From Actinomycetota bacterium (GTDB taxonomy: Bacteria > Actinomycetota > Actinomycetes > Mycobacteriales > Mycobacteriaceae): DNA of 64,000 bases. Location of the stretch: the NCBI GenBank assembly GCA_018268465.1, contig JAFDWN010000006.1:26505-90504 (forward strand). Reading direction: 5' to 3'. Positions within the stretch are counted from its first letter, which is position 1. Each line of letters begins with the position of its first letter. The notes beneath the pieces are model-generated. The model made no database searches. It saw nothing but the letters and a program-made list of their open reading frames with translations, and was not told the origin of the DNA. Of the stretch, positions 38,487-42,801 are shown in pieces. A program made the translations under genes and the position numbers.

Positions 38487-38515
38487 TCACAGCGGGCACA
38501 TAGACAGCGCACAGG
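38487..38515 (+). promoter_or_regulatory. PhoP-box-like direct repeats at the response regulator promoter
   Basis: TCACAGC-gggc-ACATAGA-cagc-GCACAGG: three 7-bp units at exact 11-bp spacing. The first unit equals the half-site of the mycobacterial PhoP box as I know it (TCACAGC-N4-TCACAGC). It ends 23 bp before the response regulator ATG. AATAAT at 38535-38540 could be a -10 box. A related array is at 42762-42801. Confidence 0.65.
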
Positions 38516-38538
38516 GGTGGCTCATCGCGGCGAGAATA

Positions 38539-39300
38539 ATGGCTGTCGTGCCCACCGTGAACTCCGTCCACGAGAACGAATCGGGCCGCGCCACCATGCG
38601 CAGGGCCGACGGCAAGCCGATCCATGTCCTGGTCGTCGACGACGAGCCGGTGCTCGCCGAGCTGGTCTCGATGGCGTTGCGTTACGAGGGCTGGGAGATC
38701 GCCACCGCGGGTGACGGCGCGACCGCGATCGCGCTGGCTCGCCAGACCCCGCCCGACGTGGTGGTACTCGACGTGATGCTGCCCGATATGAGCGGCCTGG
38801 ACGTCCTGCGCACGCTGCGCCAGCAGACGCCCGGGCTGCCGTTGCTGTTGCTGACCGCCAAGGATTCGGTGGAGGACCGCATCGCCGGCCTGACCGCGGG
38901 CGGCGACGACTACGTCACCAAACCCTTCAGCCTTGAAGAGGTGGTGCTGCGACTGCGCGCGCTGCTGCGGCGCACCGGGGTCACCACCGAAACCGGCGGG
39001 GCCAAACTCGTCGTCGGGGACCTGGTCCTCGACGAGGACAGCCACGAGGTCACCCGCGGCGGCGACTTGATCACCCTGACGGCCACCGAGTTCGAACTGC
39101 TGCGGTTCATGATGCGCAACGCCAAACGGGTGCTGAGCAAGGCTCAGATCCTCGACCGGGTCTGGAGCTACGACTTCGGCGGCCGCTCCAACATCGTCGA
39201 GTTGTACGTGTCCTACCTGCGCAAGAAGATCGACAGCGGCCGGGAACCGATGATCCACACCCTGCGCGGCGCCGGATATGTCCTCAAGCCCGCCCGCTGA
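38539..39300 (+). CDS. PhoP-like OmpR-family response regulator
   Basis: A 253-aa regulator with an N-terminal tail of about 28 residues, a receiver domain (VVDDEP, phospho-acceptor Asp78 in VVVLDVMLPD, Thr in LLTAKD, YVTKPFSLEEVV) and a winged helix (LTATEFELLRF, SNIVELYVSYLRKKID, TLRGAGYVLKP). The FSLEEVV and VESYVSYLRRKID-like stretches are closest to mycobacterial PhoP/TcrX/TrcR. The start could be ATG 38539, GTG 38548 (if leaderless from AATAAT) or ATG 38596. The PhoP-box-like repeats directly upstream suggest autoregulation. The kinase gene overlaps its end by 23 bp. Confidence 0.9.
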   Translation: MAVVPTVNSVHENESGRATMRRADGKPIHVLVVDDEPVLAELVSMALRYEGWEIATAGDGATAIALARQTPPDVVVLDVMLPDMSGLDVLRTLRQQTPGLPLLLLTAKDSVEDRIAGLTAGGDDYVTKPFSLEEVVLRLRALLRRTGVTTETGGAKLVVGDLVLDEDSHEVTRGGDLITLTATEFELLRFMMRNAKRVLSKAQILDRVWSYDFGGRSNIVELYVSYLRKKIDSGREPMIHTLRGAGYVLKPAR

Positions 39301-40885: not shown

Positions 40886-40907
40886 CGGAGTCCGCGACGA
40901 TCGAACC

Positions 40908-42767
40908 GTGACCGCTGTGGCCGCCGAGCACCCCGCCCGTGCGGTCGTCGTATTTCCGCGGGTGGCAGGTGCTCGGGCGGCGCAGCGGATAGCGCTGGGC
41001 GTATTGCTGGCCGCCACCGCGGCGCTGTATCTGTGGAACCTGTCGGCCAGCGGCTGGGCGAACGCCTTCTACTCCGCGGCGGCGCAGGCGGGCGCCGACA
41101 ACTGGACGGCGATGCTGTTCGGATCCAGCGACGCCGGCAACGCCATCACCGTCGACAAGACTCCGGCCGCCCTCTGGGTGATCGACGTATCGGTGCGGCT
41201 GTTCGGGCTGAACCCGTGGAGTGTGCTGGCGCCGCAGGCGTTGCAGGGTGTGGCTGCGGTGGCGCTGCTCTACGCGTCGGTGCGCCGGGTCAGCGGGCAC
41301 GGCGCGGCGCTGCTCGCCGGCGCGATACTGGCGCTGACTCCGGTGGCGGCGTTGATCTTCCGTTTCAACAACCCCGACGCACTGCTGGTGCTGCTGCTGG
41401 TCGCGGCGGCGTACTGCGTACAGCGCGCCTGCGAAAAGGATTCCGGCCGTTGGTGGTTGATCCTCGCCGGGGTGGCGGTGGGATTGGCGTTCCTGGCCAA
41501 GATGCTGCAGGCGTTCCTGGTCCTGCCGGGATTCGCCGCGGCCTATCTGGTGACCGGGTCCCGCCCGCTGCGGGGGCGGGTGCTCGACGTGCTGGTCGCG
41601 GCGGCGGCGATGGTGGTGTCGGGCGGCTGGTATCTGGTGCTGGTGGAGCTGTGGCCGGAGGGCGCGCGGCCTTATGTCGGGGGCTCCCAGCACAACAGCA
41701 TCGTGGAACTGGCATTGGGCTACAACGGGTTCGGCCGCCTCACCGGCGACGAACCCGGCGGGCTGGGCAACCTCAACGGTGACGTCGGCTGGGGCAGGCT
41801 GTTCGGGGGAGAGATGGGGGCCGGAGTCGCCTGGCTGCTGCCCGCCGCGGTGATCTGCCTCGCCGCCGGGGTGGTTCTCACCCGGCGCGCCCCGCGCACC
41901 GACCCGACCCGTGCGGCGTTGCTCGTGTGGGGTGGCTGGCTGGTCGTCACCGCCGTGGTGTTCAGCTTCATGAACGGCATCGTGCACCCGTACTACACGG
42001 TCGCGCTCGCACCTGCCATCGCCGCGCTGGTCGGTATCGGCGCTCCGTTGCTGTGGCGCAGACGCACTCGGCTGCCCGCCGCGACGGCGCTGTCGGGCAT
42101 GGTGCTCGTCACCACGATCCTTGCGGTGGTGCTGCTGGCCCGACACCACGACTGGCACCCGTGGTTGCGGGCGTCGGTGGCGGTGGCCGGGGTGGGTGCG
42201 GCGGCGTTGCTCATGGTGGCCGGCCGGTTCACCCCCGCGGTGGCGCGGGTGGTCGCGGGTTTGGCGGTGGCCGTCTGTCTGGTTGCGCCGGCCGCGTACA
42301 CGCTGACGACCGCGGCGTCCCCACACAGCGGCGCCCTACCGTCGGTCGGCCCGTCGCGGGGTGTCACGGCGCCGAGCGGTGGCGGATTGCTCTTCGCCCC
42401 GACACCTGGGCCGCAGCTGACGGCCACCCTGGCCGCCGACGCCGACCGCTTCACCTGGGCCGCCGCGGTGGTCGGTTCCAACAATGCCGCGGGTTACCAA
42501 TTAGCGAGTGGCGCACCGGTGATGGCGCTGGGAGGGTTCAACGGCACCGATCCCGCGCCGACCCTGCCCCAGTTTCAGGATCTGGTCGCCGACCAACAGA
42601 TCCACTACTTCATCCGGGGACGCACGATGGTCGGCCATTCGCCAGGCGCGTCGAGCGGTAGCGGTGAATCGTCGCGAATCGCGCGGTGGGTGGAAACGCG
42701 CTACGCGCCGATGCGGGTCGACGGCGTGATCGTCTACGACCTCACCGCGCCCGTGGCGAATTCATAG
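40908..42767 (+). CDS. YkcB-like GT-C (family 39) glycosyltransferase, copy 1
   Basis: A 619-aa membrane glycosyltransferase with about 11-12 helices and a soluble C-terminal domain of about 130 residues. The first outer loop carries WANAFYSAAAQAGADNW and then NAITVDKTPAALW; the VDKPP motif of the family is VDKTP here (Asp near residue 82). FRFNNPDALL and FSFMNGIVHPYYTVALAPA are further signatures. GT-C enzymes take a sugar from a polyprenyl-phosphate carrier outside the membrane and add it to lipid, polymer or protein. The GT2-GtrA gene that follows should supply that carrier-sugar. GTG 40908 is the start, 22 bp after the kinase. The last codons overlap the 11-bp repeat array. The acceptor is unknown. 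Confidence 0.86.
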   Translation: MTAVAAEHPARAVVVFPRVAGARAAQRIALGVLLAATAALYLWNLSASGWANAFYSAAAQAGADNWTAMLFGSSDAGNAITVDKTPAALWVIDVSVRLFGLNPWSVLAPQALQGVAAVALLYASVRRVSGHGAALLAGAILALTPVAALIFRFNNPDALLVLLLVAAAYCVQRACEKDSGRWWLILAGVAVGLAFLAKMLQAFLVLPGFAAAYLVTGSRPLRGRVLDVLVAAAAMVVSGGWYLVLVELWPEGARPYVGGSQHNSIVELALGYNGFGRLTGDEPGGLGNLNGDVGWGRLFGGEMGAGVAWLLPAAVICLAAGVVLTRRAPRTDPTRAALLVWGGWLVVTAVVFSFMNGIVHPYYTVALAPAIAALVGIGAPLLWRRRTRLPAATALSGMVLVTTILAVVLLARHHDWHPWLRASVAVAGVGAAALLMVAGRFTPAVARVVAGLAVAVCLVAPAAYTLTTAASPHSGALPSVGPSRGVTAPSGGGLLFAPTPGPQLTATLAADADRFTWAAAVVGSNNAAGYQLASGAPVMALGGFNGTDPAPTLPQFQDLVADQQIHYFIRGRTMVGHSPGASSGSGESSRIARWVETRYAPMRVDGVIVYDLTAPVANS

Positions 42768-42801
42768 CCGGCACATAGCTTCCGCACGCACGGCGCACAA
42801 C
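42762..42801 (+). promoter_or_regulatory. Four direct repeats at 11-bp spacing before the GT2-GtrA gene
   Basis: TCATAGC-cggc-ACATAGC-ttcc-GCACGCA-cggc-GCACAAC: four 7-bp units with 4-bp spacers. It matches the array at 38487-38515 in unit length, spacing and sequence trend (T/ACAyAG then GCACrx). It overlaps the stop codon of the upstream gene and ends 22 bp before ATG 42824. Probable binding site for the PhoP-like regulator of this cluster. Confidence 0.6.

Follow-up and report, generated by a model that had tools for sequence, protein, structure and literature searches.

The window examined here is a stretch of 64,000 nucleotides from a genome of the Mycobacteriaceae (contig JAFDWN010000006.1, positions 26,505 to 90,504; source genome of 6.88 Mb in 72 contigs). 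It holds a two-component system with an OmpR/PhoB-type response regulator beside a set of glycosyltransferase genes, and in this cluster we found four arrays of 7-bp units with an 11-bp period, placed at a common distance from a start codon. Through these arrays the regulator probably switches on both its own operon and the nearby genes for glycosylation, and the promoters are probably leaderless. Positions are those of the window, and all promoters were put in one register, with unit 1 at 0 and offsets counted to the start codon.

Repeat arrays and a shared promoter layout

The original prediction placed three units before the regulator gene (array A) and four before a gene for a GT2-GtrA fusion protein (array B), all with exact 4-bp spacers. 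These are present letter for letter, and we would add to array A a weak fourth unit (Table 1). Every spacer in the two arrays is 4 bp and the units run head to tail, as in tandem sites of the PhoP type. Both strands of the window were scanned with a matrix for which 24 mycobacterial regulator promoters supplied 72 units, the window itself being excluded from training, and arrays B (20.8) and A (19.0) were the top two pairs. Local shuffles matched the score of array A in 1 of 5000 cases and that of array B in none of 5000. It had also been stated that there is no third array. This proved wrong: the cluster has four arrays, the additional ones lying before the gene for a PMT_2/YkcB-type protein, YkcB1 (score reached by 9 of 5000 local shuffles), and on the minus strand before a small divergent gene (a weaker pair at 38457-38440, its score reached by 21 of 5000). 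The training set of the matrix consists of homologues of array A; independent of it are the results for array B and for the YkcB1 and divergent arrays. One further locus (L018) was left out of training; its array, with the start at +61, was nevertheless found.

Table 1. Genes and promoter elements of the cluster, in window positions.
Feature	Position	Strand	Remarks
Small divergent gene, 189 aa	37849..38418	-	ATG at +61 of the divergent array
Divergent array	38479..38440	-	5' to 3': CCACATC, GCTGAAC (weak), GCACAGC, ACACATA
Array A, before regulator gene	38487..38526	+	TCACAGC 38487-38493, ACATAGA 38498-38504, GCACAGG 38509-38515, weak fourth GCTCATC 38520-38526; 11-bp period
Putative regulator -10 hexamer, AATAAT	38535..38540	+	Holds the A and T of ATG 38539; nATAAT/nATACT in relatives
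Response regulator, OmpR/PhoB type	38548..39300	+	PF00072 (104 bits), PF00486 (88 bits), both over cut-off; probable GTG start
Sensor histidine kinase gene	39278..40885	+	PF00672, PF00512, PF02518
YkcB1 array	40847..40886	+	CCACAGC, CCACAGC (spacer caag), ACAAATC, CCCTAGC; overlaps end of kinase gene; aligned arrays in relatives
YkcB1, PMT_2/YkcB-type glycosyltransferase	40908..42767	+	PF13231, PF24878; GTG at +61 of its array
Array B, before GT2-GtrA gene	42762..42801	+	TCATAGC 42762-42768, ACATAGC 42773-42779, GCACGCA 42784-42790, GCACAAC 42795-42801; overlaps YkcB1 stop
GT2-GtrA nAnnnT hexamer, AACCAT, possible -10	42811..42816	+	7 nt before ATG 42824
GT2-GtrA fusion gene	42824..44155	+	PF00535, PF04138; ATG at +62 of array B
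YkcB2, second PMT_2/YkcB-type protein	44172..46145	+	PF13231, PF24878; start approximate
Carbonic anhydrase gene	46224-46781		Cluster end, after YkcB2

The four promoters agree in their geometry. From unit 1, the start codon lies at +61 in the divergent gene (ATG), the regulator gene (GTG) and the YkcB1 gene (GTG), and at +62 in the GT2-GtrA gene (ATG). All four have a hexamer of the form nAnnnT within +48 to +54, and the arrays stop 8-9 bp upstream of this putative -10 hexamer, over the -35 place; no -35 hexamer is apparent by eye at the array promoters of the window. As far as sequence can tell, such a layout fits a leaderless class II promoter, in which a -10 hexamer would stand 6-7 nt before the start and the activator site would cover the -35 place.

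Because all four promoters agree in one register, the regulator gene most likely starts at GTG 38548 and not at ATG 38539, the start used in the original prediction. The latter overlaps the -10 hexamer and is therefore probably wrong as a start; in relatives the start codon follows 6-7 nt after the regulator hexamer nATAAT or nATACT, and on this alignment we rejected ATG 38539. The agreement pointed out earlier, 23 bp from array A to ATG 38539 and 22 bp from array B to ATG 42824, is arithmetically correct; what agrees strictly is the distance of 61 or 62 from unit 1 to the start.

The short pattern CAYAG-N6-CAYAG occurs five times at four places in the window, where 0.24 matches would be expected, and none of 100 dinucleotide shuffles of the window reached five. 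In the whole genome the pattern as such is not enriched, with 27 matches, fewer than in the reversed control (46). Four of the 27, at three places (array A, 40847 and array B), are packed into some 4.3 kb of the cluster; chance alone would put about 0.02 there. Besides these four matches, one falls in the promoter of the genome's own phoP gene. The other 22 were treated as chance, judged by flanking units and start codons, even though L112 has a TTG at +62 and L104 a GTG at +60. One of the 22 is the pair at 14556 in the window (ACACAGC-cacc-CCACAGG, 14555-14572, minus strand), which precedes an open reading frame of about 213 aa with its ATG at +56; no further good unit lies nearby, and we called it unrelated to the cluster arrays. 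Another of the 22, AAACAGC-TCACAGG-GCACAGG (L105, C22:76374), stands before a permease-like gene; it includes a weak third unit, the ATG lies at +60 counted from the leading unit, and this gene is a possible further target.

With regard to the genes themselves, a GT2 protein with a GtrA/DPMS membrane domain stands between two PMT_2/YkcB_C proteins, as in YkcB/YkcC-like modules. From related families, we take the three proteins to be a set-up that makes, flips and transfers a polyprenyl-phosphate sugar. YkcB2 showed no array of its own in the matrix scan of the window and is probably transcribed together with GT2-GtrA. No family was found for the 189-aa product of the divergent gene. A carbonic anhydrase gene also lies behind YkcB2 in six named relatives; none of six carbonic anhydrase promoters scored had a pair of score 11, and there is no array here either.

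Conservation of the arrays in relatives

The comparison set comprised 80 named loci; among these, the group of regulator, kinase, YkcB and GT2-GtrA genes turns up again in several families, sometimes in a changed order. The closest named relatives of the regulator are from Mycobacterium and Mycolicibacterium species (about 90-92% identity). Unit pairs were scored at every spacing from 8 to 22 bp, with thresholds of at least 15 or at least 11. Loss of the spacing in related species had been named as the outcome that would speak against the prediction. The 11-bp spacing is instead kept: pairs of score at least 15 occur at 11 bp in 26 of 36 GT2-GtrA regions, and at any other spacing in 0-2. Among the 56 regulator regions outside the training set (the full set of 81 takes in one 34% paralogue, L025) the corresponding figure is 35 at 11 bp, with 16 at 22 bp, that is, two periods, and 0-1 at the others. 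Pairs of this score were also found in 20 of 50 YkcB regions, the rest of which include second YkcB genes and YkcB genes behind GT2-GtrA, and in 2 of 9 divergent-gene regions. As controls, kinase genes gave 0 of 67 and carbonic anhydrase 0 of 6.

The distance to the start codon is kept as well. An in-frame start lies at +61/+62 in 27 of the 29 GT2-GtrA arrays of score at least 11, against a mean of 0.56 at other offsets. Across these 27 arrays, identity to the major base averages 94% in units 1-2 (positions 2-6), 77% in units 3-4 and 55% in the spacers. Where GT2-GtrA promoters of relatives were aligned for their hexamers, these were assigned by eye. In all 13 Streptomyces loci with a GT2-GtrA match the preceding gene is the kinase gene and not YkcB1, and 11 of the 13 carry a pair of score at least 15 before GT2-GtrA; the array is therefore no by-product of the YkcB1 coding end. 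A second sample, from other genomes of the family, gave the array with a start at +61/+62 in all six GT2-GtrA loci (L124-L129, 74-77% identity).

Of the 198 genomes of the genus, 181 have a match to the regulator with an E value no higher than 1e-115. A set of 29 loci was taken as the best matches among these 181, and a further set of 30 loci likewise consists of best matches, so that neither is a random sample; all 29 loci of the first have the regulator array, with the start codon at +61/+62 in 26 and at +60 in three. A strict three-unit pattern had one match each in 72 of the 198 genomes and none in the control. In 67 of the 72 the match lies just upstream of the regulator (66 placed by script at 52-121 bp, plus G175); of the remaining five, G182, G199, G216 and G283 have a regulator match with its position unlisted, and G251, which is 63% complete, has none. 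Several slow growers have only the regulator and kinase genes at the locus, with the regulator array retained. Taken together, the comparison with relatives supports the link first proposed between the regulator and the GT2-GtrA gene through head-to-tail sites of the PhoP type. In the Mycolicibacter loci (L043, L049, L092) and in three genomes (L200-L202) the regulator -10 hexamer and start are retained and the array is lost.

Which protein may read the arrays, and to what effect

The regulator presumably belongs to the TrcR type and would then be an orthologue of Rv1033c. Synteny with kdpC did not confirm the name: of six small genomes four have kdpC, and in none of these four is it a neighbour of the regulator gene. 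The closest solved structure is that of M. tuberculosis PhoP, which reads TCACAGC-N4-TCACAGC as a tandem dimer and forms trimers and tetramers on proper repeats (PMC4832192). Of the six side chains with which PhoP reads bases in that report, the regulator keeps Asn, Glu, Tyr and Tyr. Glu and the two Tyr are shared by all 80 relatives compared and Asn by 78 of them; the PhoP-like recognition helix is nearly invariant.

A plausible scenario would run as follows. The arrays would be the binding sites of the regulator encoded at 38548-39300 which, when phosphorylated by the adjacent kinase, would bind head to tail in rows of at most four subunits spaced 11 bp apart. Since the arrays end just upstream of the -10 hexamer and lie over the -35 place, we propose that the bound protein recruits RNA polymerase there (class II activation), and that transcription begins at or beside the start codon, giving a leaderless mRNA. 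Four promoters would be driven: that of the regulator-kinase operon (autoregulation) and those of the divergent small gene, of YkcB1 and of GT2-GtrA with YkcB2. GT2-GtrA would then make and flip a polyprenyl-phosphate sugar for the YkcB proteins to pass to an acceptor outside the membrane, and if this transfer takes place the circuit would adjust envelope glycosylation.

Several observations weigh against this scenario: (i) six regulator regions (L043, L048, L049, L068, L076, L092) and seven GT2-GtrA regions (L029, L042, L058, L068, L074, L079, L080) show no pair of score 11, the pair of L029 (20.8) lying just beyond the scanned region; (ii) in the 13 Streptomyces GT2-GtrA loci, any pairs in front of the regulator are weak; (iii) the divergent array is the weakest, a score of at least 11 being reached in four of the nine named loci and, within the genus, in 17 of 29; (iv) two of the six PhoP contact residues differ (Ile for Val, Leu for Ser); (v) TrcR of M. 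tuberculosis has been placed at AT-rich promoter regions (PMC11895460, PMC4117774) and (vi) is reported to repress Rv1057 (PMC11895460, PMC4117774); and (vii) the promoter of the genome's own phoP has an array, TCACAGG-CCACAGG-GTGCAGG, with the ATG at +61.

The last point bears on who the binder is. With a like array before its own gene, PhoP could bind the cluster arrays too, alone or with the local regulator, and the cluster would then be a PhoP target. The units match the published PhoP consensus and the recognition helices of the two proteins are alike. Across families, however, the array stays with the cluster of the local regulator, and when seven Streptomyces genomes were searched with PhoP, the top match in each was, by position, the TrcR-type gene itself (57-58%). 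Three other non-mycobacterial genomes do have closer PhoP relatives (63-67%), and this test is therefore clean for Streptomyces only. That the regulator is itself the PhoP orthologue was ruled out: phoP is a separate gene of the same genome (L004, C70:227881-228558), the proteins are 57% identical, and PhoP rows form their own clade with support of 100/99, in a tree that warns of long branches and has a TcrX-like row inside the other group. From the comparisons above, the local regulator is most likely the binder of the arrays and PhoP may bind them as well; a cluster run by PhoP strikes us as unlikely, though it is the strongest of the alternatives.

We find it still less probable that the regulator binds as a repressor, at all four promoters or at some of them. 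The repression of Rv1057 by TrcR is the precedent for this. Against it, the arrays end upstream of the -10 hexamer and not over it, and no -35 hexamer is apparent; the related TcrXY system is positively autoregulated (PMC10883919), and high CO2 raises trcR and trcS alike (PMC11895460). Finally, that the repeats arose by chance or as a side effect of coding sequence, to which the overlap of array B and the array at 40847 with gene ends and the lack of genome-wide enrichment might point, can be dismissed as highly improbable on the window shuffles, the spacing and kinase controls and the Streptomyces GT2-GtrA genes, which have the same array behind a different upstream gene.

Relation to PhoPR, TrcRS and other systems

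The genome also carries a second GT2-GtrA gene, which lies behind phoP and a kinase gene (C70; L153, 5177-9059). In 4 of 13 GT2-GtrA regions of other genomes of the family (L155, L156, L162, L164), phoP, kinase, GT2-GtrA and YkcB genes stand in a row, and in another (L163) phoP and the kinase gene lie about 4 kb from GT2-GtrA. Among GT2-GtrA genes of 62-65% identity (L130-L152), the start is at +61/+62 from the best pair in 15 of 23, most of these pairs scoring low. The upstream regions of these genes often show 11-bp CAG-like units with a poor fit to the matrix. Another regulator specificity may use the same layout at these loci, and the layout may be older than the split between the TrcRS and PhoPR systems.

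Published work describes autoregulation and CO2 induction of TrcRS: trcR is up about 13-fold at 5% versus 0.5% CO2 at pH 7.0 and 2.5-fold at pH 5.7 (PMC11895460). If the TrcR name is right, these data fit positive feedback. Tentatively, and with more doubt than confidence, we suggest that TrcRS and PhoPR form a pair of sister systems, which originally served to turn on a module for polyprenyl-phosphate-sugar glycosylation from leaderless promoters with rigid four-unit arrays. The TrcR site would then be a PhoP-like multi-unit box, its core targets would be the GT2-GtrA and YkcB genes next to it, and in slow growers the autoregulated pair would have stayed behind once these targets had gone from the locus. 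As trcRS and PhoPR respond to CO2 in M. tuberculosis and a carbonic anhydrase gene stands at the cluster end, the signal controlling envelope glycosylation could be CO2 or bicarbonate.

Should the name hold, these results concern a conserved mycobacterial system with few known targets. They provide a model of the site that can be tested, with 11-bp units and the start at +61/+62, and a geometry that corrects start codons. They also provide adjacent candidate direct targets, kept together in other actinobacterial families, with a likely role in envelope glycosylation, and they hint that the much-studied PhoPR sits in the same kind of module.

The arrays resemble the M. tuberculosis PhoP sites (PDB 5ED4) in their 7-bp unit, 4-bp spacer and head-to-tail order. 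They differ in having four 11-bp frames, a fixed distance to a probably leaderless start and four promoters per cluster, and the regulator is encoded by another gene and shares 57% identity with the PhoP of its own genome. TrcR/TrcS (Rv1033c/Rv1032c), the putative orthologues, share the order of response regulator and then kinase. In the reports consulted, Rv1057 is named as the only defined member of the TrcR regulon, and targets from chromatin immunoprecipitation sequencing (ChIP-seq) such as desA3 and ppe32 are also cited, and not GT2-GtrA or YkcB (PMC11895460). The literature searched, as represented by its excerpts, held no report linking TrcRS or PhoPR to GtrA or glycosyltransferase genes. 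TcrX/TcrY is a related, autoregulated system whose site is described as a 7-bp mirror repeat, and the same report found no consensus at other targets (PMC10883919). The TcrX-like protein of the source genome (L003) is 62% identical to the regulator; its gene has no pair of score at least 9 in front on its own strand, and a pair of 14.7 points the other way. The regulator was also considered as a TcrX orthologue and rejected, as the separate protein L003 fits TcrX better by sequence. In Streptomyces, the PHO box of PhoP likewise consists of 11-bp direct repeat units read by an OmpR/PhoB regulator, with a unit sequence and a regulator different from those here. YkcB/YkcC and CsbB-type modules share the GT2 protein with a membrane domain beside PMT_2/YkcB_C proteins, and the difference is that here the module is joined to a two-component system.

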